Source: Fragilariopsis cylindrus CCMP1102 (taxonomy: Eukaryota > Bacillariophyta > Bacillariophyceae > Bacillariales > Bacillariaceae). Taken from it: 64,000 nt of DNA. The stretch is from assembly GCA_900095095.1 (NCBI GenBank), contig FMBT01000304.1, forward strand, positions 515,828-579,827, read 5' to 3'. A model generated the notes under the pieces. The model was not told the DNA's origin, searched no databases, and was given only the letters and a program-made list of their open reading frames with translations. How positions within the stretch are numbered: the stretch's first letter is position 1; the number at the start of each line of letters is the position of its first letter. Both the position numbers and the translations under genes were made by a program. Positions 22,176-64,000 of this stretch are shown piece by piece.

Positions 22176-22211
<36 letters not shown>

Positions 22212-39838: not shown

Positions 39839-39839
39839 G

Positions 39840-43301: not shown

Positions 43302-44842
43302 AGTGATGGATACGTTCAGTTGCTTGTTTTGCTTTTGTTTTGTTTTTAAAGACCAAAAGTTCTGAATGAGAGAGAATATATTAATATCGCGTTGAAAGAA
43401 TACTCGGGGAGAAAGGAACTCGAATTCGTTTTTGTTTTATCTGATAATACTACACAATGAATGATAATAATATGTGAATGTAGATAGTAGTTTCAGATGT
43501 TATTGGCTGTTATTGTATTAATAAAAGCAGCAACAGTAAGTTAATAGCTATGAATGAAAAAAGAGACTTTTTTTCTAGTGAATACCGTACAAAATTGTAG
43601 TTGAAAATCACAAGATCGTGGTGTGTGTACTAGTCAGTATGCGGTTTGGAAAATGATAAATACACTTCTATAAAAATGGTTGTGTCGTTGGTTGTGTAAA
43701 GTCAATTAAGAATAAAGAGTTCTCTTTTTTAATGGTTTTGTGAAGAAAAAAATACTTAAGGTAATGCATCGCGTCTAAGTTGAAGTTTGGATGAATGAAT
43801 GAAAATAGAAGAGAATCCATCGAAATCACACATCGTTACTTCTAACCATAACATAGATCACTATGAGTAAAATAATATACTTAGTAGAACATTATAGTAC
43901 GTTAAGTTAGGGTGGTTCGCGTCGCGAGTTGAAGGTTCTTTTGGTAAAGTGCTGGGGAAAAGAATGAATAATGAGGGAAGTCCCTTGTTTTTAATGGTTT
44001 GTTTGAAAAATAACAAATAACAAAGCGCCTATAAAAATGTGAGACTTTTTGGCTTGTTTTCGTCGCGCTTTGCTTGCTAAACTGACATAACCTGTGGTGA
44101 TTCCTGCTTACCGGTACCTTCATTTTTATCATGGAATGTGTACTACAGTACTAGTACCGTAGTAGAATAGAAGAAGAATTTGAATGAATGGTTCTTCTGC
44201 CTTGATGTTGGATCTTTGTTCAAGAAAACTCGAAGAAAGTTGTTTGAAAATGAATCGCGTGCGCTAGTAGCTGGGGGATGTGAATTTTCGCTGATTTTCG
44301 ATTTTTTTTCCAAATCGAGGATATTCCTGTGCAAAGCGCCCCAACGCAAAGCAAACGTTGCTTCAGTACAGTACAGTACAGTATCGGTGCTGCTATCAAG
44401 CGCAGATCTATGAATCTACCGTATGAACGATTGCTTGCAATGGACAATGATTTGAATTGAAGAAACGATTGATTGATTGATTCATTCGATTGACTCATTC
44501 ATTCCATTTTGAATAGCTTGTACTAGAAAGAACTATGTATGACTCATAGGTATGCAACTATAGTATCGTACGTATATCTCGTACAAGACATCATTTGCGG
44601 ACATTAGTATCATAAGAAAATTTGAAAATATTTTAAATTTTACCACTAGTAAATACACGTTGAAAATCTGAAAATATCTATCCACGAGTCAAGCAATGAC
44701 ATTTAAGATCACAAAAAAGAATAAAGAACAATTCAGATACAAACTATTACCACTACTACTCCTACCATTACCCAATTGCTTCATGTAATCATTGAATCAT
44801 TTTCTTTTAAAGTACAACATACAGTACAGAACAGGTACAATC
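43302..44842. other. Divergent intergenic region, no supported gene
   Basis: Separates the kelch-like gene (-) from the CDF-like gene (+). Promoter sequences must lie here, but no motif could be supported. Confidence 0.55.
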
Positions 44843-46255
44843 ATGATGAATATTACCGTCACTACCGCTACACTATTATTATTTACTATGACGTTGATTT
44901 CGGCGGTGCATGGTTGGACCATCAATCCTATTTCTACTGTGATATTACTACGACCACCGAGTTCGCGGTATTGTTCTACAATTAACAATAATAATAATAA
45001 TAATGCCGTTGATGTACTAGTCCGACGACAACGATCACAGCAACAACAACAACGTCAGTCACGACTGTTTGCTCTTTCTGCTTCTGCTTCTGCTTCTTCA
45101 ACTTCTTCTTCCACTGATACTTCTACTACTGATGTAGATTGCGATCAACAGCAGCAGCAGCAGGATGGCGATGGCGAGTATGATTATGACAAATGTATTA
45201 TTGATGAAGATATATTATTATCTAATTGTGCTGAACTAGAATCATTCATTAGTAGTGCAACAGCAAGTAGAACAGGTATTACTACTACTACTATTACCAC
45301 TACCACTACTGCTACTACTGCAACTATGAATATGAATATTCCCAACAACAACAACAATGACAATGCGAAGTCATCATCGTGTTTTTCCAGAAGCACGAGA
45401 GGTCTATCATCTACCGTGAAAGGTCTGATTATGTCGGCTGTTTTATTTTTCACTTTAAGTACGGCACAGATTGTTTTTGCTGTCATTGGTAACTCATTGG
45501 CATTGAGGGCTGATGCAGGAGCAATGTATGCTGATGTTGTTGTATATGTAATTGCAATTTATTGTGAATCAATCCCAGAATCGAAAGCAAGATATAAGCG
45601 TATCTTTACGCTAGTGGTATCATTCCTTTCTACTATCATATTATTAAGTATAACTATCAAATTCACTTACGAGGGATCGATCGGTATTTCAAATCGTATC
45701 GCCGTACACAACTCTATGGATGATGCATCTGCGAACGGCACAGTTATGATAATTTTTGGTGTACTCAATATGCTCATTGATTTATCGTGTCTATTCTACG
45801 GTGTTTTATTACCAAGACTTCGTAAAAAGAAGATGAAACACAACAATAATAATGATAATGATAACGATGTTATTGATGACGAGGATAATAGTGAATTGAA
45901 TGTTAATACGATGGCTGCATATGCACATGTTGCTGCCGATTTGATCCGTTCCACTGCAACAATTATTGCTGCTGTTATTATTTTATTGAAGGCACCATTT
46001 TATGAATTTGCGGATGATGTATCAAGTTTAGTTGCTAATATAACAATTATATTAGGTTGTACTGTCGGATTATGGGAATGGTGGTGTAAGCTACAACATC
46101 ATCATCATGTTAATAAGAATGATTGTTTATTATTAGAGGAACAACAAGAAAAAGACGCTACCGACAACACTGACGATAGCGATAACAATTTCAGTGACGA
46201 TGACATGTATGTTACCACCAAACTCCAACATAAATTTACAGCATTCAAAGAATAA
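44843..46255 (+). CDS. CDF-like (cation diffusion facilitator / ZnT-like) membrane protein
   Basis: 470 residues from the first ATG (44843; a second is at 44846). N-terminal hydrophobic MNITVTTATLLLFTMTLISA, then a low-complexity Gln/Ser/Thr/Asn region to about 190. Six helices follow, with a short DND loop after helix 4. Helix 2 reads RADAGAMYADVVVY (Asp224, Asp231), and helix 5 reads AYAHVAADLIRS with His362 and Asp366. This matches the CDF pattern (DAxHMxxD and HxxxD). The first ligand of the helix-2 pair, normally His or Asp at 227, is Ala, so metal transport may be altered. A His-rich HHHH follows the last helix. The last ~17 codons are an antisense copy of part of the seven-helix gene at 8.6 kb (46208-46293). 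Confidence 0.7.
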   Translation: MMNITVTTATLLLFTMTLISAVHGWTINPISTVILLRPPSSRYCSTINNNNNNNAVDVLVRRQRSQQQQQRQSRLFALSASASASSTSSSTDTSTTDVDCDQQQQQQDGDGEYDYDKCIIDEDILLSNCAELESFISSATASRTGITTTTITTTTTATTATMNMNIPNNNNNDNAKSSSCFSRSTRGLSSTVKGLIMSAVLFFTLSTAQIVFAVIGNSLALRADAGAMYADVVVYVIAIYCESIPESKARYKRIFTLVVSFLSTIILLSITIKFTYEGSIGISNRIAVHNSMDDASANGTVMIIFGVLNMLIDLSCLFYGVLLPRLRKKKMKHNNNNDNDNDVIDDEDNSELNVNTMAAYAHVAADLIRSTATIIAAVIILLKAPFYEFADDVSSLVANITIILGCTVGLWEWWCKLQHHHHVNKNDCLLLEEQQEKDATDNTDDSDNNFSDDDMYVTTKLQHKFTAFKE

Positions 46256-46293
46256 CATCTTTTGAAATTGCCCTGATCATATGATTTCTTTTG
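46208..46293 (-). repeat. 86-bp antisense copy of seven-helix gene exon 2 fragment
   Basis: The reverse complement of 46208-46293 aligns without gaps to 8642-8727 with about 80% identity counted by eye (CAGGGCAATTT, GTAAATTTAT, GGTAACATAC shared). Translated on the minus strand it reads SYDQGNFKRCYSLNAVNLCW, against SYYQGNFDRFYYLSNVNLYW in the receptor. It lies over the stop codon of the CDF-like gene. Confidence 0.85.
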
Positions 46294-46484
46294 AAGCAAG
46301 GCAGTCATAAAAAAGTGGAACTACAATATGCGTACCTATGCATACTTACATACCTATGAGACCTACACAGTCGTTCCAGCTAAATACTCGACTGAATACT
46401 AAGTGTCGATCTATCATATCGAGTCTCATTCTTCCCATCTCTAGATATTGTGTTACCGTTTTACCATCCCCTTCAGGCATACTA

Positions 46485-46569
46485 CTTCCTCCGTGCAACG
46501 CTTGACCCACAAAAAGCGAAATGTAGGAAAAAAATAATAGCGTACGAATCAAGCGTTGCACGGAGGAAG
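46485..46569. mobile_element. Stowaway-like MITE 2 (85 bp), TA target duplication
   Basis: Perfect 21-bp terminal inverted repeats starting CTTCCTCCGTGCAACGCTTG, TA on both sides (46483-46484, 46570-46571), no coding capacity. Shares the CTTCCTCC terminus with the 30452 element but differs inside. Confidence 0.85.
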
Positions 46570-47305
46570 TACTAGCTAGTACTTTCTACCTACCTCTAGT
46601 CAAAGTGTCAAGACAGGTTATATGTTATTCACCGCGCAAGTTAATTTAATTGCTCCCTAAAAAAGTAGCTACAATAGTATTGTAGTGTAAGTTTCCGCTC
46701 GTCACAAAATGCAACAGCTATATTTCCCTAGATCTTCTTTTCTTTGAATTAAATGTAGCTACTATTTAGATACGTCATACTTGTAGAGTTAAATGATGTA
46801 CATTCTATTATCACAAATCCCGCGTCATTACAAAGGAAGCGTGAGTAAAACGATGTTTGAGCGTGGAACTTATTTCCTCTGAGAGAGGCTGACGAAGGCG
46901 AGGTCGAGTCGAGTCAACACGGCACAGATAGTTCTACAACCGCGGACGACTCCATGTAGGGAATGTAGCAAGCTATCCATCGTGCTCTAGCTGGTAGTAG
47001 TCACCATTTGTCGATGACACTTAGATGAGGCGCATAGTTGGAGTAGTAACTATTTTTGTTACCATTAACGTCCCCACCCCACCGTAGCCATCCATATATG
47101 CTTTGTTTTATGACAAAATAGATAAAGAACAGTGTTGTGTGGCGTCGTCAGTGTACTACGTGTATCTATCTATTACAATAGAAGGAACGAAAACCTCATT
47201 TACGCCGAGCCATTTATTTCCTTATCATCCACAAACCATTATCATTTGTTTGTGCCAATTATTAGAAGGCCGCTTAAACATAATACATAATACAATTCAT
47301 TAACA

Positions 47306-48106
47306 ATGTTGTCAAGCCTCATGTCCTGGATTTCGCCTAATAATGATTCTGATGACAAGAAAGAAGAAGGGAATTCCGCCGCCGTTGCTGCTGCTAACCC
47401 CTGGATTTCGCCTAATGATAATCTTGATGATAAGAAAGGAGAAGGGTATTCCGCCGCCGTTGCTGCTGCTACTGCTGCTACCGGTGCCACCTCGAGTAGT
47501 AGTAGTGGGGTTGTTGCAGATGACAACAATAATAATAATGATGCAACAACTATGGCGGATAGCACAGTCTCAGTGAGTAGCGATGTTGCGGTGGATAAAG
47601 ATGGAGAAAAGCAGACAATGCACACTTCTTGGTCTGTCGGGGAAGCCGTCGAGATAAAAACGGATACTAACTTACCTGATTTTGGTATCATTGAAAAAAT
47701 CAACGGCGATGGTACTTACAACATTAAGAATTTAATTACAAAAGCTTCCATGAAATTGGTGCATTACGATCTACTTCAAGGGACGAATGATACCGAACTA
47801 TTATCTTCTTCTGCCACTAGTTCTTCTTCGTTTCCTCGGAGTTATGAAAAAAGATCTAAAAAAAAGGCTAGAAAATGCACTGTTATTTGTCAAGTGAAGG
47901 AAATAATTCTATCATCGATTCCTTGTTGGATAACAAAAGGAAATACAGATCACATCGCATTACTTGTTGATCAAGATGTGTTGGCATTGTTAGAACAGGG
48001 TTTTAGTCTGTCCGATGTACCACAAGAATCAAAGATCTGTATTGAGTGGCAATCTACGAAGAAAGAAGAACAGGTTCTAGTCTCATCTGTCAGTCTTGAA
48101 AGTTAA
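47306..48106 (+). CDS. Protein with Tudor/SH3-like domain
   Basis: 266 residues, ATG at 47306. Two N-terminal copies of WISPNxNxDDKKxEGxSAAV come from a 75-bp tandem duplication, followed by Ala/Thr/Ser/Asn linkers. A compact beta domain (about 107-155) reads SVGEAVEIKTDTNLPDFGII, GDGTYNIKNL and a strand ending KLVHYDLL, the pattern of Tudor/SH3-like and methyl-lysine-reader barrels. Then KRSKKKARK (nuclear-localisation-like) and a C-terminal helical region with VKEIILSSIPCWI. A nuclear or RNA-associated role is inference. Confidence 0.55.
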   Translation: MLSSLMSWISPNNDSDDKKEEGNSAAVAAANPWISPNDNLDDKKGEGYSAAVAAATAATGATSSSSSGVVADDNNNNNDATTMADSTVSVSSDVAVDKDGEKQTMHTSWSVGEAVEIKTDTNLPDFGIIEKINGDGTYNIKNLITKASMKLVHYDLLQGTNDTELLSSSATSSSSFPRSYEKRSKKKARKCTVICQVKEIILSSIPCWITKGNTDHIALLVDQDVLALLEQGFSLSDVPQESKICIEWQSTKKEEQVLVSSVSLES

Positions 48107-48646
48107 TAGTCAAGACGTGACGATCGAGAGATCGCTTCGATCGTCGACGATATAATAGTATATCATATCATGATGTTGATTGTTTCGTATACGTTACATA
48201 CGTGTACCTGATTATTCTTTCTAGGCACGATTTTACTCGCTTTGCAGTAAGGAATGAAACGTAAAATTATCAGTACTTTCCTACACGAAATGAAACAAAA
48301 TAACCGCTACTAGGAGTATAAAGCTGCTAATATGTTGTTATATATATATAGACCATCTTAATAAAGATATCATGCCCTTCTCGCCATCACCCTCGGGGGT
48401 TGTTTATGCTTTCACAATGTTAGGAACGATATCCGTTTACAACGACATACATACGTAGCTATGCGGATATAACTGAACGTAACTAAGCTTAAACTAATAT
48501 TTCCTTCAGACACAATATGAGCAAATTGGTATTTATTTAATATAAGCTAGTAAAATAAGTATCACATAATTGCATATTTAATTAATCTTATTTGCTGATG
48601 TTTCGATCTCTATCGATTATTGTTCTCTGATTGAAGGTCTTGTCTT
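48107..48646. other. Convergent intergenic region
   Basis: 3' flank between the Tudor-like gene (+) and the split TPR-like gene (-). No supported feature. Confidence 0.6.
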
Positions 48647-49503
48647 TCATGCGGCTGGTGCATACTGATATTTTCCAGATAGGTTGTGATGAAAACCATT
48701 TAAGTCAAAACTTGAATAATGTAGATAATCATTGCCATGACCATGATTTTGGTGGTTACGATTGCTGCTAATACTGCTACTATTACTGCTACAGTTGTTG
48801 AAATTAACTACCGTATGCATAATACAACTTAATACATGTTCTAAGCATCGAACGTGTTTCGTAGTATCATTTGAAATACGATGTATCTCACCTATATTAT
48901 TTGATATAATCATGACAAATCGTAAGTTACCAAGATTGTCAGAGTTGAACAACGATGTCGATGTCGTTGATGTTGACTCTTGTTGCTGCTGCTGTTGCTG
49001 CTCTTCGTATTCTGTGTGAAGTCGATAGGCCAACATATATAGATGTAACGATTGCTGTAATAATTTGGTAGTAGTAGTAGTAGTAGTAGAAGAAGTAGAA
49101 GTAGGTGCAGCAGCAGTAGCAGTGATAATTGATGTTGCAATTGCCTTTAAGTGATATGCCAAAGCAAGGTTGAATACGATGATCACTCTCAATGTAGATC
49201 CGGTGTAATAGTGCATCTGCTGTTCGATGGAACTACTCATGTTGACACGAAGTGCTTTTCGATACACAAACCCGTAACAATCATCATCATTTTTGTCAAT
49301 ACTGCTGTAACAATCCATTGAATAGTCTTGCTCTTCTTCTTCTTCTCGTTCCTCTCTTATTAAAAAACAGGATTGAAGACTGTAGCATGTACAGCAATCA
49401 AATGAGAGACTCTGCTTTAATCCCTTTGTTAAAAGGGCTATTGCTTCTTCGTAGTTACCATCTGATATTGACATGGATGCTATGCTATTGAGCCTATAAC
49501 ATT
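48647..49503 (-). pseudogene. TPR-like gene split by the copia element: 3' part
   Basis: 275 codons from the in-duplication ATG at 49474 to the stop at 48647. TPR-like pairs: DGNYEEAIALLTKGLKQSL, VIIVFNLALAYHLKAIA, LQQSLHLYMLAYRLHTE and NNIGEIHRIS, the layout of a widespread diatom TPR-like family. Poly-Thr, poly-Gln and Ser/Asn tracts separate them. The true N-terminus (56837-56786) is now 7.3 kb away. Without the element and one duplication copy the frame is continuous, 305 codons including stop (52+129+734 bases). The 3' part could still be expressed from the internal ATG. Confidence 0.75.
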
Positions 49504-49509
49504 CGTTTA
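49381..49509. repeat. 129-bp direct duplication flanking the copia element, left copy
   Basis: Identical to 56657-56785 over all 129 bases as read here. Starts TGTAGCATGTACAG and ends CATTCGTTTA. It is host TPR-gene sequence. Two extra bases (AA, 49510-49511) separate it from the LTR. Confidence 0.95.
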
Positions 49510-49511
49510 AA

Positions 49512-50092
49512 TGTTGGCGCGCACCAATTCAGTCGCGAGCGACATCTATTCAAGACGCGAATGGTCCCCAGTCCCAAAGGGATGCGACCTACAGGGGATG
49601 CAGGGATGCAGTTGAAGGGATGTACAATACCCAATCCATTCTAATACAGTATATTACAATATGGAAGTGTAATTACAGTATGCGCAGATGAGAGAGAATT
49701 ACAGTATCTATAGAGAACAGGGATGCAGGCGTCACTAGATGGAGTGCAGTGAGAGAGAGAATTACAGTATCTATAGAGAACAGGGATGCAGGCGTCACTA
49801 GATGGAGTGCAGTGAAAGCAGCTCCGATCTAGCAAGCAGCATCTCGTGCTAGTTAATACTGTATGAAAGAAAAGATGAAAAACGGTCGAAATTCCGGTAC
49901 TACTAGATAATACTAGTAGTGATGGAATTTGATCCGAAAACCACACCTCTCTCTCACAATATTGTTTTGAACAGATATTAAGAAGGAATGGAATAGAACG
50001 TAAGCTATACATTATAATAAGAAAGTTAATAAGATACTGACGTAAGACCACTTGTATTCACTCGAGCTAGTAATAAAAGACACAGTCTAACA
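49512..50092 (+). repeat. 5' LTR of the copia element (581 bp)
   Basis: TGTTGG...CTAACA ends (TG...CA), same length as the 3' LTR (56076-56656). No difference was seen and a 136-codon antisense frame inside is identical in both. Contains a 63-bp tandem (AATTACAGTATCTATAGAGA... near 49698 and 49761). Confidence 0.95.
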
Positions 50093-50128
50093 TAATTTAA
50101 ATTACGGGACTAGATCTGGTTACTAGGA

Positions 50129-52120
50129 ATGCAACAGCAAGACGCAGACGATCCAGAACTTTCAGAGGAAGGCAAGGAAGACACTCAAGACAAGCAAGCA
50201 CTTGAAGACGAAGTAGTCGAAGCCAAGGACGATACTGAAGACAAGCAAGATCTTGCAGAAGAAGCAATCGTCAAGAAGAAGCAAGCGACAATGAGTGACG
50301 AGAAGAATCACATCAAGTCTCGCTATGCGAAGATTCCAATCATGAAGGAAGGAATGACGGCCATCCAGTATGCGCTTAAAGAACCGCAACTGCGATCCGT
50401 CATGGATATTAGTGGATGCATTGAATGTTTCTCTGAAACACGACACAAGGATCTGCCGGCAAAAGCAGATGGTGCAACGACGAAGGAGGAGGAAGTAGCG
50501 GTCCTGAAGCACAGGAATTGTATCAGTATTATGATCCAATCCTTTGGTGAGAACACGAAACTAACTCTTGCATTACAGTCGACCGTAAATGAAGATTGGC
50601 CGACTGGCCAATCGCACTTGGTTATCAGGAAGATAAACATCAAGTTCAAACGACAAGGATCTGGGACTAATGACAGGCAGGCCTTAGCGGCTCGCAAGAA
50701 AGCATTTGAAGCAGTCAAGATGGAACAACGTGATAACCCGGCGGTTATGTTTCAGAGATTTGATGAACTGATTTTGCAGTACGGAACAAGTTCTAATAAA
50801 TTAACCGATGAAGAGATCATGGCAATGGTCCATGAAAAGATACCAGTGCACTACCTAAGCGTTCTCGCCAACCACGAGACGCGTCTGAAGATTACAGGTG
50901 ATATAATGACTTATGATATTATGCAAGACGTCATTAACGATTGGTACGAAGAGATTACTAACCATGATGGAAAACAATGGAAGTCGTCAAACTTGAAAGA
51001 GATCGCATTGTTGACAGCGTCGTACAAACAAGCATCGAACTCTTACAAGTCACCAGGAAGAGGTGGAGCCGGTAGGGGCGGGTACCAACGACGTCAGCAG
51101 AATCAAGCACACGGACGATTTGCCGCGAAGACCGACAAGGCATGTTACTACTGCCATAAAGTTGGCCACATGAAGAGAGATTGCAACAAGCACAAGGCCG
51201 ACAGACGTGACTTACAATGCAGCCATTGCAATATGAACGGTCATATTGCTGAAACGTGTTATAAGCTGCACCCAGAACTGAAGCCTGCTAATGGCGGCGC
51301 CAGGTTTGGTAAAGTCGCTGGCGAACATGCGAATGCTAATATTGATGATATCGATATATTCTTAGGAGCATTTTCTGATCATGACGACGACGAGGATTCA
51401 TTCAATGAAGATCCTCAAGATGAAATCGATGACGAATATGAACACGTAAATAATTATGATTCTGATGCTGAAATTATTTATGGTGAGAGACCAAGCATAA
51501 TGGATAACTGGGGTCAGGCAAGTGATCAAGAAGAACAAGCTGAGAAGTTCGCTATGGCAAGAATCCATCGAGATCGTCGAATGGAAGGAAAGGATCCGGT
51601 TGCTGCTCATCAACGAGAGCAAATTCGGGAACAAGCCAGGGAGTTACAGGCTGATCAGGCGCATTTGGAACGAGTTGAAATGTATGCTGAACGCGAACGA
51701 ATGGAGATGATAATGAACCCTGAACGTGAACAACATCAAGTAATAGATCTCACTGGTGACGTGGTTCTGATTACAACGGAAGATGATGATGATGACCTAA
51801 GTCAAGACACTCAAGTTATTGCAGCAAACCGTGCTGCACAGCTAGAAGAAAACGAAATGTTTGCAATTATTATCGACACTAGTATCACCATGCAGAAGAG
51901 ACAAAATCCAAGAGACTGGGCAGACTGTGTACTAAGTAAGTTTTTATTTATTGGTATTGAAACTAGGAGTCAGCTATTGAAGGCAATACATGAAGGTGTA
52001 TTGAATAGGAGATTAAGAAACCAAAACAAAAGTACTATGAATAAAGAAACGATTGATACGTTGAAGTTTGAACTGTTACGTGCAAGAGCACGTGAGAACA
52101 GAAACATCAGTGATGAATGA
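50129..52120 (+). CDS. Copia Gag with two CCHC zinc knuckles
   Basis: 663 residues. An acidic N-terminus, then a UBN2-like gag region (DNPAVMFQRFDELILQYGT, MTYDIMQDVINDWYEEI). Zinc knuckle 1 is CYYCHKVGHMKRDC (Cys339, Cys342, His347, Cys352) and knuckle 2 is CSHCNMNGHIAETC (Cys364, Cys367, His372, Cys377). A long acidic, Glu/Arg-rich C-terminal half follows. The stop is UGA at 52118-52120; the same frame then stays open into pol. Confidence 0.93.
   Translation: MQQQDADDPELSEEGKEDTQDKQALEDEVVEAKDDTEDKQDLAEEAIVKKKQATMSDEKNHIKSRYAKIPIMKEGMTAIQYALKEPQLRSVMDISGCIECFSETRHKDLPAKADGATTKEEEVAVLKHRNCISIMIQSFGENTKLTLALQSTVNEDWPTGQSHLVIRKINIKFKRQGSGTNDRQALAARKKAFEAVKMEQRDNPAVMFQRFDELILQYGTSSNKLTDEEIMAMVHEKIPVHYLSVLANHETRLKITGDIMTYDIMQDVINDWYEEITNHDGKQWKSSNLKEIALLTASYKQASNSYKSPGRGGAGRGGYQRRQQNQAHGRFAAKTDKACYYCHKVGHMKRDCNKHKADRRDLQCSHCNMNGHIAETCYKLHPELKPANGGARFGKVAGEHANANIDDIDIFLGAFSDHDDDEDSFNEDPQDEIDDEYEHVNNYDSDAEIIYGERPSIMDNWGQASDQEEQAEKFAMARIHRDRRMEGKDPVAAHQREQIREQARELQADQAHLERVEMYAERERMEMIMNPEREQHQVIDLTGDVVLITTEDDDDDLSQDTQVIAANRAAQLEENEMFAIIIDTSITMQKRQNPRDWADCVLSKFLFIGIETRSQLLKAIHEGVLNRRLRNQNKSTMNKETIDTLKFELLRARARENRNISDE
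52118..52120 (+). promoter_or_regulatory. Single in-frame UGA between gag and pol (candidate readthrough site)
   Basis: Gag and the first pol ATG (52217) are in the same frame, and only this UGA lies between 50129 and 55984. The 32 codons after it contain no stop although the DNA is about 70% A+T. Context is GAA-UGA-CAU. Alternatives are reinitiation at 52217 or an inactivating mutation. Confidence 0.6.
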
Positions 52121-52216
52121 CATTCACCTGATGCGGTAGCTGTAAGAGAATTAATAAATAATACATATATATATAATGATAACGAAAATTGCACAACAAA
52201 ACTTATATACGAATAC

Positions 52217-55200
52217 ATGAATTACACAACAACTACACATCAGTTCAAATTACATATTTTATTAAACAACAACAAAGAAAAGCAACAGTATTATGGCGAT
52301 TATATATTTACAAATATAATGTCGTTTCCTTCGACATCAGAGATGTTGCTAGATGACAACATCGCTGTATGTGATACAGGAAGTACAGCTCATTTTAGCG
52401 GCAGTGACCGAGGAGCTGAAAATGAAATAACGTGGATGAATCATTCAACTACGGATGCCAGTGGTAACAATATGAAGGTTACGAAAGTATTCGATTTGAA
52501 TGTCATGCTCACTGACAGATACGGTAACGAATTAAGTAAAGCAAAGATAACAAGAATTCGTTATGCGAAAGATAAACCGTTTACATTACTGGCAACAAAC
52601 AAGTATATGGAGAAAGGTTTTGTAATGAATGGAAATAAAGAAGTTGGTATTAGATTAACAAAAGGAAACGTCAGTGTGACGTTTGACATACCAATTAGAA
52701 CAAATGAAGGAGTTCTATGGTGTTTGCATATGAAAAGATTAGCACCTGATGGCTTAGACCAAGTAGCGGAAGTGTCTTGTTTTGTAACCAATATAGTCAA
52801 AGCACACGGATTGCTGGGTCACAGTAATGAAGCCTACACGAGAAAGACAGCAGAACATTTGGGCTGGAAAGTTACCAGAGGAACACTTGGTAACTGTGAG
52901 AGTTGTGCAATAGGAAAAGCACGACAAAAGAATTTGGGAAAGGGAGAATCAAACCCACCAAATGAAATTGGAGAAATGTACTACATAGATGGTATGAGTC
53001 TTAAGAAAACAAAGAAAACAGTTGGACCGTTTCCGTCGCAAAACTGTATGGTAATGATGACAGAGTATCATACTGGTCATGGATTTGTAAACTGGTTTGA
53101 AAGTAAGGACGGTTTTATAAATGATTTTTGTAAGAACATAAGTATTTTACAATCTAAGCATAAGTATGTAATAAAGCGACTTAGAGGTGACGGGGCTGGA
53201 GAAAACAATTCATTTTTACAAGAAATGAATTCAGCAAGATGGAAATTTAACGTTACACCGGAATGGACACCAAGAGATACTCCTCAACAGAATCGAGTTG
53301 AGAATCCTATCTTTGTGTGTTGTATGAGGGCACGAACATTGCAGGCTAGTGCAAACGTGCCAAATGATATGAAGAATGTACTGTTTCCTTATGCATACAA
53401 GTGTGCATTCGATTGCAGATCATTAGAAGTTATAAATGTGCATGGAGTCATGAAGACAAGAGCGGAGCATTTTAACAAGGAACTTCCAAATTTTAGTAGA
53501 TATCTAAGAAGATGGGGTGAAGCAGGTACAGTCAAAACAACACCAGTAAATGCAGCCAAGTCAAGAGAACGTGGAGTAACTTGTATTTTTGTTGGTTATG
53601 CTGATAAACGTCCAGGTGATTGTTATGTAATGATTGACCCGAAGAGCAAGAATTATAGACCTTATTTCTCAAGAGATGTTATATTTCTAAATAGAAATTA
53701 CTATACCAAGTCAAACGTACCAAGAAATGGCAGCGTAATACAAGTACAAGGAATTAATCATATATTTGATACAAGTGCTGATCAGGGTAGTGTAGTAGTG
53801 AATGAAATTGAAAACGAAATTGACAATGAAAGCAATACAGATGATCAAGACTTTAATCAAATGGAAGATGAGAGTAATAATGACCAAGATGATAACAGCA
53901 ATAACAACAATGAAGACCAAGAAAATGATGATGATGAAGTTGAAACTGCTGAAGAAGAAGAACCTCCAACAAGAACAAGAACTGGAAGAAAAGTAAAACC
54001 AAGAGTTAGATTGGACGGATCCTCAATAACTAATTATGGCGTGGCAGCACTAATACAGGAAGAAAGAAATCCTCAAGATGTCATAGCTGTAATGATTGAT
54101 ATCGAAGATGAATTACTAAGTAATACATATGATCTGGGCGATGGAGAAATCAATCATATAGCAGAAAGTGTACTAGAATGTCCATCAATGACCCAAGAAG
54201 AATTAATATTATCAACATTAGGTGAAGAAGAATGCTATGAAGAAATAGATCAAGCATACGGTATCAACAATGAGCAAGGCGAATTCATGCTGGTAGCAGC
54301 AGTATTGAAGAAAGAAGAAGACTATTTTCTAGTCGGCGCGACTGGACACAATTATGGAAACACAGCAGAGCTAAGTGTAATGAACTACAAGCAAGCAATG
54401 GAAACTATCAACAAGGAAGAATGGCTAAAAGCAATTAAGATAGAACATGCAAAGATGCAGAAATACAATGTGTTTGAAGTAGTACATCCAAAAGATGTAC
54501 CGAAGGGAACAAAGCTTATGAATTTTACATGGGCAATGAAGAAGAAAGCAAGTGGAGTTTATAGAGCCAGACTTGCGGCTCGAGGATTCCAACAGAAAGT
54601 GAATTCTCAATATCGCGAAGATGATAAATCCTCACCAGTAATTAATGATGTATCAATCAAGATTGTACTAACACTAATTGTACTGGCTGGGTGGAGTACA
54701 CGTATAACTGATGTTGAAGGAGCATTTCTGAATGGTTCTTTTGAAAGAAAACATGAAAAGTTGTATACAGAAGTACCAGAAGGATTAAAAGATTGCTATC
54801 CATGGTGGGCAATATTATTGATGTTGAAATCAATGTATGGAACAATTCAAGGCGCATTGCAATGGTTCAGAGAAATATGCATGGCGTTGAAGTACTTATC
54901 ATGGGAAAGAAATAAATCAGACCCGTGTTTATTCTATAAGTGGACTGATGATAAGTTGGTAGTATTTTTGTTATGGGTTGATGACTGTCTAGTAGCCGGG
55001 CCTGAACAACTGGTAACAGAAAATACAACGGAGTTTCGAAAACTATATGATACTACCGATGAAGGAGAAATGACTGAGTACGTTGGATGCAAGGTTGAAC
55101 GTACATTTGAACAGATCAGATTAACACAACCAGTGAAAATTAAGAGGTTGATGGATGAGTTTGGCTATGATGGAAAGGTAAAACCAAACACACCTGCGAA

Positions 55201-55984
55201 GCCGGGTAGTGTACTATCAGTGGATTCAATAGGTAGCGAATCTGTGAGTCCAGAAGAAGCAACAAAGTTTAAAAGTGTCATAGGTATGACAAATCATATG
55301 GTGAGATGGAGCCGTGTTGATTGTCAAAATCCGAACAGAGAATGTTCACAACAGGTAAAAGATCCAACTAAAATGGGAATGTTACACATGGACAGAATGT
55401 GTGAATTTATGGTGGCAACAGGAGATCGAGGATATACTGTCAAGCCAGACCTGCCCGGAAGCTGGGACAGCACAAAGAATTATAAATTCAAGATATCAGG
55501 TGAAAGCGATAGTGAATACGCAAAAGACCCAACAAGAAGAAGTGTGAACTGTGGAGCAACTTTCTTGTGCGGTGCTTTAATAAAGATGTTTTGCAAAATG
55601 ATGCCAATTGTGGCACTATCTACAACAGAGGCTGAATTGTATTCAGCAGTGTTGACAGCACAGGATATGATGTTTGCCTACTATATTATGATTGGAATGG
55701 GACTGACAGTCGAGCTTCCAATGGTACTTTACATAGATAACCGAGGAGCGGTTGATCTGGCAAATAATTGGTCTGTAGGTGGTAGAACACGACATATGGA
55801 CGTAAAACAGAACTACCTGAGAGAATTGAAAGAATCAGGAATGATTAGATCAATGTGGAAGAGTGGAGAAGAAATTACTACGGATATGAATACCAAGAAT
55901 ACGCAAGTTAAAACATTTTGGTATCATTCAGATAAAGTAATGTCATTTCCCTCAGAGGAAGAATTGAAAACAAGAAAAGAGTAA
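52217..55984 (+). CDS. Copia Pol: protease, integrase, reverse transcriptase, RNase H
   Basis: 1255 residues from the ATG at 52217, and possibly longer by UGA readthrough. The protease motif is CDTGSTAH (Asp53). The GAG-pre-integrase zinc region is HGLLGHSN...CESCAIGKA. The integrase triad is Asp258 (YIDGM), Asp325 (LRGDGAGEN) and Glu362 (QQNRVEN), spacing about DD36E. RT has TDVEGAFLNG and a WVDD catalytic box (Trp920-Val-Asp922-Asp923), where YVDD is usual. RNase H carries IVALSTTEAEL, YIDNRGAVDLANNWSVGG and RTRHMDVK. An acidic N/D/E hinge separates integrase from RT. The frame is intact throughout, supporting a functional copy. Confidence 0.95.
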   Translation: MNYTTTTHQFKLHILLNNNKEKQQYYGDYIFTNIMSFPSTSEMLLDDNIAVCDTGSTAHFSGSDRGAENEITWMNHSTTDASGNNMKVTKVFDLNVMLTDRYGNELSKAKITRIRYAKDKPFTLLATNKYMEKGFVMNGNKEVGIRLTKGNVSVTFDIPIRTNEGVLWCLHMKRLAPDGLDQVAEVSCFVTNIVKAHGLLGHSNEAYTRKTAEHLGWKVTRGTLGNCESCAIGKARQKNLGKGESNPPNEIGEMYYIDGMSLKKTKKTVGPFPSQNCMVMMTEYHTGHGFVNWFESKDGFINDFCKNISILQSKHKYVIKRLRGDGAGENNSFLQEMNSARWKFNVTPEWTPRDTPQQNRVENPIFVCCMRARTLQASANVPNDMKNVLFPYAYKCAFDCRSLEVINVHGVMKTRAEHFNKELPNFSRYLRRWGEAGTVKTTPVNAAKSRERGVTCIFVGYADKRPGDCYVMIDPKSKNYRPYFSRDVIFLNRNYYTKSNVPRNGSVIQVQGINHIFDTSADQGSVVVNEIENEIDNESNTDDQDFNQMEDESNNDQDDNSNNNNEDQENDDDEVETAEEEEPPTRTRTGRKVKPRVRLDGSSITNYGVAALIQEERNPQDVIAVMIDIEDELLSNTYDLGDGEINHIAESVLECPSMTQEELILSTLGEEECYEEIDQAYGINNEQGEFMLVAAVLKKEEDYFLVGATGHNYGNTAELSVMNYKQAMETINKEEWLKAIKIEHAKMQKYNVFEVVHPKDVPKGTKLMNFTWAMKKKASGVYRARLAARGFQQKVNSQYREDDKSSPVINDVSIKIVLTLIVLAGWSTRITDVEGAFLNGSFERKHEKLYTEVPEGLKDCYPWWAILLMLKSMYGTIQGALQWFREICMALKYLSWERNKSDPCLFYKWTDDKLVVFLLWVDDCLVAGPEQLVTENTTEFRKLYDTTDEGEMTEYVGCKVERTFEQIRLTQPVKIKRLMDEFGYDGKVKPNTPAKPGSVLSVDSIGSESVSPEEATKFKSVIGMTNHMVRWSRVDCQNPNRECSQQVKDPTKMGMLHMDRMCEFMVATGDRGYTVKPDLPGSWDSTKNYKFKISGESDSEYAKDPTRRSVNCGATFLCGALIKMFCKMMPIVALSTTEAELYSAVLTAQDMMFAYYIMIGMGLTVELPMVLYIDNRGAVDLANNWSVGGRTRHMDVKQNYLRELKESGMIRSMWKSGEEITTDMNTKNTQVKTFWYHSDKVMSFPSEEELKTRKE

Positions 55985-56075
55985 ATTGGTTTAGACAAGT
56001 GGTCGAATCAAGATAATAATAATAATGCATATAAATATGAAGTATATATATATATATAATACGACCAGGGTAGTG

Positions 56076-56656
56076 TGTTGGCGCGCACCAATTCAGTCGC
56101 GAGCGACATCTATTCAAGACGCGAATGGTCCCCAGTCCCAAAGGGATGCGACCTACAGGGGATGCAGGGATGCAGTTGAAGGGATGTACAATACCCAATC
56201 CATTCTAATACAGTATATTACAATATGGAAGTGTAATTACAGTATGCGCAGATGAGAGAGAATTACAGTATCTATAGAGAACAGGGATGCAGGCGTCACT
56301 AGATGGAGTGCAGTGAGAGAGAGAATTACAGTATCTATAGAGAACAGGGATGCAGGCGTCACTAGATGGAGTGCAGTGAAAGCAGCTCCGATCTAGCAAG
56401 CAGCATCTCGTGCTAGTTAATACTGTATGAAAGAAAAGATGAAAAACGGTCGAAATTCCGGTACTACTAGATAATACTAGTAGTGATGGAATTTGATCCG
56501 AAAACCACACCTCTCTCTCACAATATTGTTTTGAACAGATATTAAGAAGGAATGGAATAGAACGTAAGCTATACATTATAATAAGAAAGTTAATAAGATA
56601 CTGACGTAAGACCACTTGTATTCACTCGAGCTAGTAATAAAAGACACAGTCTAACA
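56076..56656 (+). repeat. 3' LTR of the copia element (581 bp)
   Basis: Starts TGTTGGCGCGCACC after CAGGGTAGTG and ends CTAACA. Offset exactly 6564 bases from the 5' LTR. Confidence 0.95.
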
Positions 56657-56785
56657 TGTAGCATGTACAGCAATCAAATGAGAGACTCTGCTTTAATCCC
56701 TTTGTTAAAAGGGCTATTGCTTCTTCGTAGTTACCATCTGATATTGACATGGATGCTATGCTATTGAGCCTATAACATTCGTTTA
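56657..56785. repeat. 129-bp direct duplication, right copy
   Basis: Directly abuts the 3' LTR. Identical to 49381-49509. Confidence 0.95.
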
Positions 56786-56837
56786 TTACCTTTCTGTTGA
56801 TGAGATCTACACCCCCATGGTGCTGGTGCTCTGACAT
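56657..56837 (-). pseudogene. TPR-like gene split by the copia element: 5' part
   Basis: Begins MSEHQHHGGVDLINRKVINE at the ATG at 56837, enters the duplication (RLNSIASMSISDGNYEEAI...) and then runs into LTR sequence and stops. The native promoter remains with this part. Confidence 0.75.
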
Positions 56838-57470
56838 GATGATGATGATGGTTGCAGAGTGTTGTGTTGTGATTTGAAATCGATTATCGATCAGTATTAT
56901 TTTATGTCACAATTGCAATTGTATTGAGTTTTAATGGAATAGTGCAATTATATCTTTATTGTAGAAGTCAAGTACCTTGTATGTTCGGGACGAGCGATGA
57001 AATTATATACGATTGATTGTAATTGTATTGAGTTCATGCATGGAATAGTGCATGCAATTGTTATCGTCAAGTATCATATGTTCGGGACGAGCGATGAAAT
57101 AGCTTCGAATAATGGATAATGATACTATATTATAGTGCGGTGTATATAAAAACTGTATACAGAAAAGTATTTGTGACTCAATGCACTTAAGTAATGAGTC
57201 TTTTTCGGTACAATTGTACAACAATTTTGAACATTCGGAAAATACTTTTCTGTATGTTGAAAACAAAAACAAGAGGGGGCTGTTGAAACGATATTGAACC
57301 CACTTAACAACAATTAAGAGTTTTGTATCACACATACGAAAACCACGATCAAAACTGTAACACAATAATTACAGAAGGAAAAGTTAGGACATACAGTATT
57401 ATCAGCGACAAGTCCTACACAGCTACTTCAAGTAGGTATATATACCACGAATACATGATGTATCGTACTG

Positions 57471-57538
57471 GGCCTTCCGTTAGTTTAAAAAAAAGCACGA
57501 GGTTTTGCGCGTTAAAACAAGGGAACTAACGGAAGGCC
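57471..57538. repeat. 68-bp inverted-repeat element
   Basis: GGCCTTCCGTTAGTT and its exact complement bracket ~38 bases with an A-rich centre. No TA duplication is visible, so class unknown. Confidence 0.85.
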
Positions 57539-57918
57539 TGCCTTGTAAAATTAGCGAAAAATTTCAAATACCTGAAACGATCAACGAGACACAAAATAGA
57601 AGTACAATTACCACTTACTTACATAATATTTACTCTAATATGTACCAACAAGAAGCCTCATAATTCCATTGAATTATTAGTAGTAATGTAACCTACTGAA
57701 ACCATTATTTATTAATACTACAGATTCTATCAATTGTAAAAAAACTTTTTCAACAAAAACTTTTTTTTTTAATTGTTATCGTATCTGTAGTATCTCTTAT
57801 CTCTCTATTTTCTTGCGCATTATCCTGGTCCCCCGCCCCCACACCCCACACCCCACATCCACTGGTGGGCTTGGACAGTGCAGAGGACCTGATAAAAGAA
57901 TTATAATAGGGGAGACAT

Positions 57919-57920
<2 letters not shown>

Positions 57921-57955
<35 letters not shown>
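57921..57955. repeat. (CT)n tract abutting the methyltransferase ATG
   Basis: An uninterrupted run of CT dinucleotides ends one base before the start codon. Confidence 0.9.
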
Positions 57956-57956
<1 letters not shown>

Positions 57957-57958
<2 letters not shown>

Positions 57959-59454
57959 GCAGCTTATCGACGCCTGGACCCATCTAAATCACGGTCTAAC
58001 AGTGTTCGAATCCGTGTGGCGTCCCCAGCCCTTCCGCCTCGCTGTTGCGTCCTCGTCCTCTCCTTCCTGGCAGCATCCACTTCACCAGAAAGCAGCAGAT
58101 TTGGACGATGCCACATTTCGTGATATAAATTCCAGTAATGAAGTACTTCGTGATTGGGTGACGGATTGCTTATCGGACCTTGCTACGGACAACAACGACG
58201 ACACGTACGATGAAAATGGGAACACCTATCAATTGCAATCGGAAGCATTTCAATCAATGCTAGACGTTCTACAAGAGTTCCCTACTCCCAACACCTCACA
58301 ACAGGCAAATGAAAAAAACAACCTACTCAGGACGGACACAGCCACGAGAAGCCAATGGAATACCAGGACGTAAATGGGAACAAGTGGAAGCATTCACAAA
58401 GCTTGTACCAAAGGGAGATAACAACCAGTATCCAATTATCGACTGGTGTTCGGGTAAAGGCCATCTCGCACGGTGGATGCATCATTCCAGTAATACAAAC
58501 GAGAGTAGCTGCGGCTGCGGCTATCGTGGCCGGCCGGTACACTGCCTAGAAATTGATTCGAAATTATGCCGTGCCGGGGAACGACTCACCAAGAAACAAC
58601 CAACCATACCAACAAACAATGGAGTGATGTTTTACGAACACGATGTACTCAATGATGCATTGCCATCGACACTGCAAGGCGAGAATTTTACGTATACGGC
58701 CCTGCATGCGTGTGGAGAACTGCACCGTACGGCTCTTCGAGTAGCCGTCCAGAATCGAGTGAGGGACGTTGTGATTGCACCCTGCTGCTACGAGAAGCAC
58801 TTTGGAAAGCATGATACTGCCGATAATGACAATGATGGATTGTTGTTCCAGCCGCTATCGACGGTTGTGAAGGACCGCACGTCCCTTTCGATCCATCGAG
58901 AGGATTTATTCTTGGCGGTTGCTGACGGGGTTGTTACATCCAATGCCAAAGAGGCAAACGTGAGGGAGAAGGAACAGGCCTGGCGGTTGGCATTTGAGTT
59001 ATGGCGGAGAGATCAGGAGGTGAGTCACAGTCAGTCGTCGTCCGAACAACACCTTGCCGTCCCATCCGCACCCTATCGCATACTCGCCGAAGACAATTTC
59101 CCTCTATTTGTACACCACTGCATCACATCCAAAGGCCGAAACTCAGTAGAACGAAGCAGTCTACAGCCTGCCTTTACGGCAGCGCTGCTCAATAACGCAA
59201 AGAAATCATCTACTACTCGGCTAGCCGACAACCACCACCACCTCGACGAGTATGCCGTGAAAGGTGAAGCACTTCAACGGCTAGTGGAACGTCAGGAACT
59301 GATCCGTCGTGCCTTCCAACGGTCGTTTGAATTGTGGCTTACGATGGATTGTGGATTATTTCTAGAAGAGAGTGGGTATACTGTGGAACTGCAGCAACTT
59401 TGTGATCGGTCTATTACGCCGCGTAATGTTGTTATTGTGGCGCATCATTTGTAA
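57957..59454 (+). CDS. SAM-dependent methyltransferase, bacterial-like, with one A-run frameshift
   Basis: Starts at the ATG at 57957, directly after a (CT)n tract (57921-57955). Frame 1 runs to about 58310; the frame then shifts at a seven-A run (58312-58318), where dropping one A gives NEKTTYSG and continues to the TAA before 59455, about 498 residues. Motifs: GIPGRKWEQVEAF, IIDWCSGKGHLARW (SAM motif I), VHCLEIDSKLCRAGERL (post-I acidic Glu), ALHACGELHRTAL and IAPCCYEKHFG. These match Methyltransf_32-type enzymes found in proteobacteria and eukaryotes (METTL25/RRNAD1-like). The gene is visibly more GC-rich than its neighbours. Substrate unknown; RNA is possible. Confidence 0.82.
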
Positions 59455-59793
59455 TTGGTGTATGTGTTGGACGCCAGTTGTTAAACACGATGACACCCTG
59501 CTTTTCGAGAATAGTTTGTTTTGTGGTGCAACCACTCATTACAAAAGTAAGATGGAGGGGTGAATAGGAAACCCGACCACCGGACTTGATCTTACTATCG
59601 AAAGTACTACTATTAGCTGGTGGGAGTGGGGCAGTAATAGGATAAACTGAAGTACTGCTTGTCGATAAACTCGAAGCCACGAATCCATTTTGCTTTGATC
59701 GCTTGAGGACGAATATCTGCCATTTACTTCTTCAGCACTGTTTCGGGCTGCTGTACCGGAATCCGTACTCAACACGTCGGTAGGTTCCGGCAT
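59432..59793 (-). CDS. Hypothetical small protein overlapping the methyltransferase 3' end
   Basis: ATG at 59793. Ser/Thr-rich MPEPTDVLSTDSGTAARNSA, then a one-base deletion in an A-run near 59686 leads to the frame SSLSTSSTSVYPITAPLPPA through VMSGCTTKQTILEKQGVIVF to the stop at 59432. About 120 residues, tail-to-tail overlap of ~23 bases with the methyltransferase. No domain recognised. Confidence 0.4.
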
Positions 59794-60521
59794 TGATCAT
59801 TTACGATACTAGCGGAAGGAGATGATGCTAAGAACAACATCACCGCAGATCTGACGAATCTAATCATAGATCCCCCATATAATATGATAGTTGTTCAGTT
59901 CTAATATAACGATTGCTTAGTTATCTAAAAATATTAAATAATCTATATCTGTATGGGATTATGCTGCGAAAGTTCTAAGGTACATTGAAGATGATTAGTT
60001 TCTTAGTGACATAAACAAGATATCTGACCAACCAAAAAATCTGTCATCATCTAGTAGAATGAATACACATGCATTACAATTTGAGTTGACTCTACCCAAT
60101 TTTTCAACTCGCCATTACTTGGATTACTCATGGTAGAATGTCACTAATTAGGTACTGGATAAGAGTGTTGAACTGTCTCTTACAATACCTACATGTTGCA
60201 TCTCGTCTCTTGAAGGAGGGGAGGAAATTAATGGTTGTATAATAGAATCTAGGAATATATCATACCTTAATCTGTGGTGTATAATCAGTACAAAATATCA
60301 TAAAGAAGGCAATATACAAATATTGTACTAGGAATATGATGTTCTATGGGAAAAGCTTTTCGTTGTAAAATGTGTATATTATTATGTATTAATTGATAGA
60401 GAAGGTTATCTGCGTACTATATTATATGACCGCGCTGGAATGTATATATCAATCCTGCTGCGTTTATACGTGCCTGCCCCCTCCCCCACCTCAATTCGTT
60501 TCTCGTTATTTTTAAGAAGAA
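59794..60521. other. Intergenic, no supported gene
   Basis: AT-rich 0.7 kb; no coding or repeat structure recognised. Confidence 0.6.
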
Positions 60522-61668
60522 TTAGATTTGTTCGACATCATCATCATCAGTGCTCAAAAAGAATAGATCATTAGAGATATCAACTTTCGTTTTTGGTTTG
60601 ACGGGTTGTACGTACGAATCAGATACCATGTACGGTTCCACGATTGCAGATAAAGGGAAGACTGTGGATGGTGCAGTATTCACGATACGGACGGTAGCAC
60701 CAGCACTCATGTCAAACATGGCTGGTGTATCAATCACAGCAAAGAATGGTTGTTCTAATCCATTCTCTGAGAAGATATCAACAACCTGTTTGTTATCATT
60801 CGTACCTTGAACGAGTTCAACACGTGCATGTAAGGGACGGCCATCAGTTTGTAATAGGATCTGGATCGATTCGACGGTATTTTCAAATTGGAATGATTCC
60901 ATACCATTGTCACCATCGACCTTGTATGGTTCACCAAGATCAGCTAATGCTTGTACGACTGCACCCTGTCCAGCTTGTTTATTACCACCGGCCTTTACAT
61001 CCTCGACGTCCGCAACGACACAGGCACCAATAGGGAATTCCATCGGAGACATATTACGAACGGCAATAGAATTGTGCTTGTTGGGTGTTTCTAATACAGC
61101 TGAAAATGGATAGGTGTTACCATCATCAGAGGCAATTTGAAGTCTCATTGGTGTCGAGTTGGGTCCCTGCCATACTTCAACATTCGCCGATAATGGAACA
61201 CCTTCGTTGTTGATCATCACAGAAACACGATCGACGCTGTCATTGCTGATGTTCCATGTCTTTAAACATTTACCTCCTTGGATACTCTTAACAGATTGTG
61301 TACCAGCCAATGATTTGAATGCACCACGGACAGCTCCTGTATGACGGACAACACGGACTTTCTTCGCCGCTGATAAATCAAATTTCTTTGATCCACCGAC
61401 CTCTGGCTTAGGTTGTTGTTGTTGTTGTTGTTGTGGTGCAAGCGGTTGGGCATTGTTCTTCTTCTTTTTGGGAGCAAAACCCTTCGCAACCTTTTGCAAA
61501 ATCCTTGAGGTCATGATTGACAAGTTTCTCTTGTTGAAATTTTTCACCTTCGTTTCTTTGGTAGTTCAAAGCTGTATTCTTGAAGGCAACATTCTTAGGA
61601 GCGAAAGCCGAAACGGATAGTACTTGTTGGGTGATGAAAAGAGCGAATAGTTGGTTAGTAATCTTCAT
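60522..61668 (-). CDS. Plastid-targeted protein with internally duplicated beta domain, one frameshift
   Basis: Starts at the ATG at 61668 with a signal peptide (MKITNQLFALFITQQVLSVS) directly followed by AFAP, the diatom plastid-import motif. One extra base near 61547 shifts the frame; it then continues NFNKRNLSIMTSR and runs to 60522. After a Lys/Gln-rich linker and FDLSAAKKVRVVRHTGAV, two related ~85-residue beta domains follow. Repeat 1 has RVSVMINNEGVPL, VEVWQGPNSTPM, PFSAVLETP and FPIGACV. Repeat 2 has SIQILLQTDGRPL, VELVQGTNDNKQ, PFFAVIDTP and FPLSAIV. This family appears to be ochrophyte-specific with no known function. The tail is acidic (DDDDVEQI). Stromal or thylakoid location inferred. 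Confidence 0.75.
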
Positions 61669-62536
61669 GGTAGTATTGATTTGTTTTGGAGAGAAGGTGA
61701 ATATATGAAGTGTTTGTTGATTTGTTCTTTTTCGATGTGAAAGAAAATTAGATTATGAGTACAATACGGTATAAATTGCGGGAGAAACGATACGAACAAA
61801 TGGAATAAAAAAAATTAATTCGATAACATTTCGAAAATTTCGAAAAACAGCGATAGGAAAGAAAAGATATGAATTTTAATTTACAAACTGACACACAACG
61901 ACTATAAACGAATTGTATATTTTTACGCGCGCGAATGAAAAAATGAGTGAATTGGACTCGTTACGCTCGATTTATTTAATAAATAGAAAGAGAGAAAGCA
62001 AAAAATGAGATACAGTAACGACTTCTTCTTAAGAGTCCGCCAGTACAACGATTTATTTTAGTCGATTGAGTCGAATCAAATAAATTCATTTCACGACTGG
62101 CTTGATTCCGTAAAAACAAACAAACAACAAGAGGAATACGATCACATTTTTATTGCCTCAAACTTAATATGTATTTGCACATGGGCATACTTCGGACGAC
62201 ATGACTTGATATATGAGAACACATAGCTAATGAGAACACTGAAATGAGAAGTGTAACAATGAAGTGAGAAGTGTTGCTGTATCACACATTTGAGCTCCAT
62301 TATGAAGAACAATTGCATACGGAAAAGAACACAATTGTATTCGTAAAGAACAATACTATACAAGGAATGTACTCGTATTTGATCGAGCATTTTTCTGTTC
62401 GTGCATGCATTTCTCATCATCATCACACAGATTAAAAAACCCATCTACTATCACATCACATCACACAAATACACACAAACACACACATACAAACCACACA
62501 CGCATATACACGACAATAAAATATAGGTATACAATC
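61669..62536. other. Divergent promoter region
   Basis: Lies between the plastid gene (-) and the gene at 62537 (+). Contains a CACA-rich tract (62455-62505). No other supported feature. Confidence 0.5.
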
Positions 62537-63245
62537 ATGTCACTGATCCACAACGCACAAGTAACGTATTCGGGTGATCACGAACTCGCAATACTTCATT
62601 TTGCTACTAGTAGTATAGGCAGATACAAAGCACCTTTTGATTGAATTTCTTATTACCGGTACTATATATCAAATCAATATGGATTCTTTCATGCAAAAGT
62701 TACTTCTTGATAAATTGTTATCGGCAGAATGGAACGATATCAATGAAGTTGTAGACATTATTTGTCCTCTACCTGTATCATCAGACGATGATGTAATCTC
62801 TACCAGTGTGAATGCAAAGGAGAAACTTATTGCTGCTACCATCACTGCTCCTGATGCTGATATTGGTACCTGTCGTGCTTCAATAAGTTTGTATCATCGT
62901 CCTCATCGGCTTCTTTTTGTTGATATTCTGACTGACAATGCTCTTGTTTTTGCAGAAGCACGTCCAAATGTATTTCGTCAAACGGAAGATAATCGATGGG
63001 ATGCCATCCATGATACTCATAATGATAACAATGACAATGACAATGACAATGACAATGACAATGATAACAACAATAACAATGACAATGGTAATAATAATAA
63101 TAGTAATGTAAGTGATCTTATAAGGCGAGAAATAAGTGATTCAAGGTTGGTAATAGCGGATAGGAGATGGAAACAACAACATCGTGATTTTAGGCGGGGA
63201 GAGAGTGACTCAATGTTGGTGATACCGACAAGGCGTTGTTCTTGA
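62537..63245 (+). CDS. Hypothetical protein with N/D repeat, one T-run frameshift
   Basis: ATG at 62537 (MSLIHNAQVTYSGDHELAIL). The first frame stops at 62644, but removing one T from the four-T run at 62635-62638 gives KAPLIEFLITGTIYQ and continues to 63245. About 235 residues: a helical-looking core (FMQKLLLDKLLSAEW, VVDIICPLPV), beta-like SLYHRPHRLLFVDIL, an Asn/Asp tandem from an AATGAC microsatellite, and a basic C-terminus. No family recognised. Confidence 0.5.
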
Positions 63246-63611
63246 TTTGATGGTGGGGCTTGCAATCAAAAAAGATGAAGGGCACAACGATGTAAGTACT
63301 AATGGTCTCAGACCGATCCTTGAATAGTTCATCGACAACGACAGTAGTAGAGCAAAATCTTAATGACGATAATATCTACGATGACGACATTAACGTCAAT
63401 AAAGCTTCTCTATCATTTTAAATATACAAGTTACTCTATTAGATGTGCTATTATGTAGTAGTATCAGCAGTAGTGCTTAGATAGTGAAATCATCTCCAAT
63501 AGATATCATATCGCATTCAATCAATGGCGAACATAGTAAATAGTCGAGCTCATCCAGATCAATCATTAATTACGGGATATTTGATATTGTGTCTTCTGCT
63601 GCATTTCCTGT
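63246..63611. other. Intergenic, no supported gene
   Basis: Convergent gap between the N/D-rich gene and the DUF6824-like gene. Confidence 0.6.
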
Positions 63612-64000
63612 TCACGTACACGTTGATGTTGCTGTTGCTGTTGCTGTTGATCCTGATGCTGCCGTTGGATCTTTTTTTGCTGTTTTACTTTTACTGCTAG
63701 ATAGATAATTGCTTGCAAGTAAGTCACGAAAAATATATCCGACCTTTTCACGTGCTACGTTGTTACTAACCTCAAACCATTGCCCGTTCTTAGTTTGACG
63801 GACAAATGCAATTCGTCGACAACGTTTTCCACCACAGTTACAGTCGCCTTCTTGACATGCTGTCCTAATAAGAGCCATTACTTTGTCCACCAATCGTGTT
63901 TTAATAGCTTTTTTTCTTTTGCTGTTGAATATTCTGGTAAAAACGAACTAGCAATAACACGCAGTCTTTGATTGCCAACCGTTTCTCTGATCTTTTTCCG
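63612..64000 (-). CDS. DUF6824-like domain protein, C-terminal part (5' end outside window)
   Basis: Reading from the window end, VGNQRLRVIASSFLPEYSTA leads into KAIKTRLVDKVMALIRTA, FVRQTKNGQWFEVSNNVARE and KVGYIFRDLL, then a Ser/Lys/Thr tail. GN-x-R-hR, a K-rich helix, the W-x-EV pair and ReKvGxxxRDL match the diatom-abundant DUF6824 domain of unknown function. A seven-A run at 63911-63917 is one base short of keeping the frame. An unusual CQEGDCNCGGKRCRR insertion sits in the middle of the domain. Confidence 0.7.

Follow-up and report, generated by a model that had tools for sequence, protein, structure and literature searches.

The window analysed here, a 64,000-nucleotide stretch of the Fragilariopsis cylindrus CCMP1102 genome, contains a copia-type element bounded by long terminal repeats (LTRs) with TG...CA ends and no mismatch between them (0/581), set between two copies of a 129-bp host sequence (Table 1). 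Its gag-like frame holds one CCHC zinc knuckle, which scores below the Pfam cut-off, and its pol frame holds an integrase-like region, an SH3-like domain, a copia reverse transcriptase (RVT_2) and an RNase H-like end. The reverse transcriptase is matched in Pfam with an E-value of 2.8e-29 (102.9 bits, cut-off 31.6), and the SH3_retrovirus domain upstream of it with 29.6 bits (cut-off 27); the Pfam integrase core (rve) has no match in the element, and a PDB search with the integrase-like region matched no solved structure. The integrase and RNase H parts of the pol frame are putative assignments made from characteristic motifs, and the zinc-binding and acidic motifs that we name in the integrase-like region are likewise putative. 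One in-frame TGA stands between the gag-like and pol frames, while the frame of the nearest relative of the element, on contig C478, is unbroken over 1703 aa; this TGA may be a read-through signal, a mutation or a sequencing error. Judged by its sequence, the element is a young Ty1/copia-type LTR retrotransposon in a polar diatom genome, and the identity of its LTRs indicates that the insertion is recent. In this genome, 53 rows hit the ice-binding family PF11999, with some rows being fragments of a single gene.

Table 1. Position, strand and description of the features at the insertion locus (window coordinates)
Feature	Position	Strand	Remarks
Host open frame	48647..56837	-	interrupted near its start by the insertion; compared with C117
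Left copy of the 129-bp host duplication	49381..49509	.	exact repeat; single copy in C117
AA	49510..49511	.	left junction only; absent from the empty allele C117
Copia-type element	49512..56656	+	7,145 bp
5' LTR	49512..50092	+	581 bp, TGTTGG...CTAACA
gag-like frame, from first ATG	50129..52120	+	ends at TGA 52118-52120
pol frame	52121..55984	+	1287 aa; same reading frame as gag after one TGA
RVT_2 reverse transcriptase match	54464..55195	+	
3' LTR	56076..56656	+	581 bp, identical to 5' LTR
Right copy of the 129-bp host duplication	56657..56785	.	exact repeat

The direct duplication around the element, pointed out in the initial annotation, was confirmed by exact comparison within the window: the two flanking 129-mers agree at every base, and the agreement stops at their ends on both sides. 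Apart from parts of the LTR pair, the 129-mer is the only far-apart exact repeat of at least 60 bp in the window, all remaining exact repeats of at least that length being local tandem repeats. An exact match of 129 bp that abuts the element on the right and the AA dinucleotide on the left lies far beyond chance. Tandem arrays are found at 39837-40596 (253-bp unit, about three copies, 98% alike), at 37806-38543 (188/189-bp unit, 86% alike) and at 35012-35307 (18-bp unit). The structure of the locus is that of one assembly, in which the window has no N runs.

At the left junction the sequence is CATTCGTTTA-AA-TGTTGGCGCG, at the right one CAGTCTAACA-TGTAGCATGT. No base is missing from either LTR terminus, and the right LTR-host junction (CTAACA/TGTAG) is normal, without an added base, barring one ambiguity: the 5' LTR is followed by a T, and base 56657 is also a T, so that the duplication may be one of 128 bp plus one element-derived T. 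The first five bases of the right copy, TGTAG, would be the target duplication expected of a normal insertion at this site. At the left junction the AA does stand at one side only, as had been claimed, and since the dinucleotide before the 3' LTR is TG and that after the 5' LTR is TA, it was not simply carried over from adjacent element bases; read-through into the bases beside the LTRs is ruled out as its source. No homology of the AA with the host bases TTACC beyond the break was found at this junction. A concerted insertion is marked by a target duplication of 4-6 bp and no added bases, and this locus departs from it in both respects, with 129 bp (or 128 bp and one T) duplicated and AA added at 49510-49511.

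The genome of the same organism (67.9 Mb, 818 contigs) holds three matches to the 129-mer, two in the window and one on the minus strand of contig C117 (105416-105544), which differs at 1/129 positions (C at window position 49485, T in C117). Within the C117 stretch that we fetched, the 129-mer occurs once, without the AA and without the element, and is directly followed by TTACC, the same bases that follow the right copy in the window. This third copy, lying in an element-free collinear region, bears out the earlier proposal that the duplicated segment is host sequence, and the empty allele, which had been named as a check, carries one 129-bp copy and not two. The 9,901-base C117 stretch aligns to window positions 44501-61470 in five main blocks, in order and with 92-96% identity, with some 0.5 kb present only in C117 near window position 48.36 kb, and some 0.27 kb present only in the window around 57.7-57.9 kb. 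Window segments 1-4000, 20000-24000 and 61000-64000 also match C117:98457-158174 in the same order and orientation, with 82-96% identity by piece. All of the sampled parts of C117 being collinear with the window, this contig almost certainly represents the second haplotype and hence the empty allele; a segmental copy is a formal but improbable alternative. At 173 kb, C117 is longer than the longest alternate contig (127 kb) of the published assembly (PMC5634323), if that is the same assembly. The window ends at position 64000 together with its contig, C464, and the C117 haplotype continues for 98 kb beyond.

The single difference between the alleles in this segment is informative. Both 129-bp copies in the window carry C (at 49485 in the left copy) where C117 has T, so that neither derives from the C117 haplotype as assembled; the DNA copied would have belonged to this chromosome or to its sister, and not to the assembled C117 homologue. 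The suggestion in the initial annotation that two haplotypes had been mis-joined is weakened by the same observation. The insertion also interrupts a host open frame: the C117 allele has an unbroken 312-aa open frame across the insertion site, with weak TPR-like matches, all below the Pfam cut-offs, and in the window the start of this frame was placed at 56837 by comparing the sequence with C117.

We compared the duplication with those of other copia elements in the same genome. The RVT_2 profile gave 264 candidate matches, of which 150 were scored and 100 chosen; 10-kb stretches were taken for the first 20 of these (L016-L035), near the top of the ranking, and an LTR pair was seen in 19 of the 20. 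With the relative on C478 (L036) and five elements of which the junctions alone were read, 25 other elements were examined, a non-random sample whose LTR termini were picked by family resemblance, which leaves some freedom in the counts that follow. Duplications of 5 bp flank 18 of the 25 elements (14 found by script, L033 by eye, its end word having been missed by the script, and C218, C478:24-31 kb and C251 read at the junctions), duplications of 4 bp flank two (L018 and L023), and four have none (L017, L029, L034 and C506). The duplication of the remaining element (1/25), on C522, is unreadable because the element lies within a run of C, present on both its sides (C522:54234 and C522:61280). 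At the 19 loci with an LTR pair, the longest exact match between upstream and downstream flanks was 12 bp (flanks of up to 600 bp, shorter where the locus ends). The 129-bp duplication is abnormal for this genome, where the norm is 4-5 bp (20/25), and the comparison with sibling copies, which the initial annotation had proposed, agrees with the short duplications (4-6 bp) that it had expected of integrase.

The integrase-like region has one other match in the genome, that of L036 on C478 (64%, gap-free over 159 residues), and the acidic positions, which are presumably catalytic, are the same in both. The reverse-transcriptase piece finds the same relative at 65%, and the other 44 of the 46 reverse-transcriptase matches are at 30% or below, except one 46% fragment (56 residues, with five stops). 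L036 has identical LTR copies (337 bp aligned) in addition to its unbroken frame, and it is flanked by a clean 5-bp duplication, TGTAG/TGTAG. The same five bases start the right flank of the element in the window, and since the empty site of L036 and the right-hand site of the window element share ACTGTAGC, the common target word suggests that the right junction was made by integrase. The agreement may also be a coincidence: among 10 LTR relatives of L036 read at the start of the 3' flank, none has TGTAG and one starts with TGTAC. A fixed preference of the lineage for TGTAG is not supported by these relatives, nor is a habit of long duplications, the sole other near relative found having 5 bp. 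The LTR relatives of the element are partial and diverged, and searches with the LTR, the integrase and the reverse transcriptase found no other close copy of its lineage in the assembly; in view of the identical LTRs, the source copy would be missing from the assembly or lost. Among marine viral contigs, none was confirmed to encode a relative of the integrase piece.

We consider that the locus is best explained by a one-ended, aberrant integration of copia cDNA that was completed by host repair, and we give this reading a probability of about 0.55. Integrase would have attached the right end of the cDNA (CTAACA-3') to the top strand between GAAGAC and TGTAG, a point at which regular integration would produce a 5-bp duplication (TGTAG), and the left LTR end would have stayed unjoined. 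A host polymerase, primed from the freed 3' end at GAAGAC, would then have copied 129 bases of the flanking target, or else the sister chromatid (same haplotype) may have served as the template, and host end joining would have sealed the copied DNA to the free left LTR end with the untemplated AA. The joining of the right end by integrase, which we infer from the junction sequence, is consistent with the clean right and untidy left junctions, with the duplication relative to a C117 allele that has a single copy and no AA, and with the gap-free alignment of the integrase-like region to that of its C478 relative. The lack of mismatches between the LTRs (0/581) and between the host copies (0/129) would fit a single recent event, 129 bp being too short to date the event by itself.

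The outcome proposed for this locus has been described in retroviruses. Integration sites in earlier surveys had the correct duplication length throughout (HIV 15/15, MLV 8/8 and spleen necrosis virus 7/7 sites), as quoted in one report (PMC2857682). When the HIV integrase is weakened or inhibited by drugs, the aberrant proviruses mostly keep one normal end, and the commonest change at the other is a duplication of host DNA, often of hundreds or thousands of bp, the viral end there being often truncated and usually sharing short homology with the added DNA (PMC5041404). In the window element, the left LTR end is complete and shows no such homology, which counts against one-ended integration, although that source describes truncation and homology as frequent or usual and not as obligatory (PMC5041404). 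It also counts against this reading that there is one event only and that the junctions alone cannot separate it from capture at a 129-nt staggered break.

Such a capture had been favoured in the initial annotation: the linear cDNA would have been end-joined, without integrase, into a break whose 5' overhangs, about 129 nt long, were then filled in, with AA at one joint. It predicts an identical duplication, fully filled in, with a single untemplated addition, and the capture of retroelement sequences at breaks is documented (PMC4516963). Nevertheless, the element has both LTR termini complete, whereas the captured elements described in mouse zygotes are truncated at both ends (PMC4516963), its integrase-like region looks intact when compared with that of the C478 relative, and in HIV a complete block of integration almost abolishes insertion (PMC5041404). 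Because both LTR ends are complete, we regard capture as less likely than one-ended integration, the latter accounting for a clean and an untidy end together, and the claim of integrase-independent insertion is not supported in the form given. That copia cDNA entered a 129-nt-overhang break with both LTR ends intact, as a natural full-length insertion free of integrase, appears improbable to us. An error of assembly seems equally unlikely; here the true duplication would be the 5-bp TGTAG, and the left 129 bp and the AA would stem from the merging of long reads from filled and empty alleles. There is a single assembly, the expected TGTAG duplication can be read directly from the right junction, and C464 ends 7.2 kb past the element, at a place where the other haplotype continues, so that the assembler had trouble nearby. 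Against such a merger, the left copy has C at 49485, where C117 has T, and is thus not C117 sequence, the window is free of N runs, and a 20-kb library was among the data of the PacBio/FALCON assembly of F. cylindrus, if that is the same assembly (PMC5634323).

Still less probable is the other alternative raised in the initial annotation, an insertion into a tandem duplication that pre-existed on this haplotype only. About three copies of a 253-bp unit lie close by, near 39.8-40.6 kb, and tandem duplications between haplotypes are noted in the paper on the F. cylindrus genome (PMC5634323), but the single copy in C117 disfavours this origin. The element would, moreover, have had to land exactly at the repeat boundary without making a duplication, or, if it made a 5-bp duplication, at the precise centre of a 253-bp tract with a period of 124, and neither placement explains the AA.

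If reads confirm the locus, it offers a natural insertion and its apparent empty allele in the same genome, from which the rare one-ended route could be read base by base in an LTR retrotransposon. It would also suggest that an accident of HIV and of avian retroviral vectors befalls copia elements as well, and that duplications of this size flanking an LTR element need not mean an assembly error or older tandem repeats. Our literature search, made on titles and the starts of abstracts, recognised no paper on a duplication of at least 100 bp around an LTR retrotransposon, and the only match on unusual duplications concerned L1.

Among diatom elements, the Ty1/copia CoDi elements resemble the one described here in their TG/CA LTRs and copia reverse transcriptase (PMC2806351). 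Duplicates of Phaeodactylum tricornutum CoDi5 'consistently differ in a few A/T insertions', so that there is a precedent for added A or T bases among diatom elements, and for the Blackbeard element an empty allele and a 4-bp duplication have been described (PMC2806351). Unlike in our case, no duplication of such a size is described for CoDi elements in the available text of that work (PMC2806351). Break repair by captured retroelements in mouse zygotes is similar in that retroelement DNA is joined to the host by repair, but those captures are truncated at both ends and mostly joined by microhomology (PMC4516963), whereas the diatom element is full length with both LTR ends. The closest likeness is to aberrant retroviral integration, known from HIV-1 with a weakened integrase and from avian vectors with a defective DNA end, which likewise combines one clean end with an extensive duplication of the flanking host DNA at the opposite end and with extra bases or an untidy joint made by the host (PMC5041404). 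The present case differs from these in that the untidy LTR end is complete and without short homology, and in being a single, natural insertion of a diatom copia element; it represents a known type of accident encountered in nature and not a novel system.
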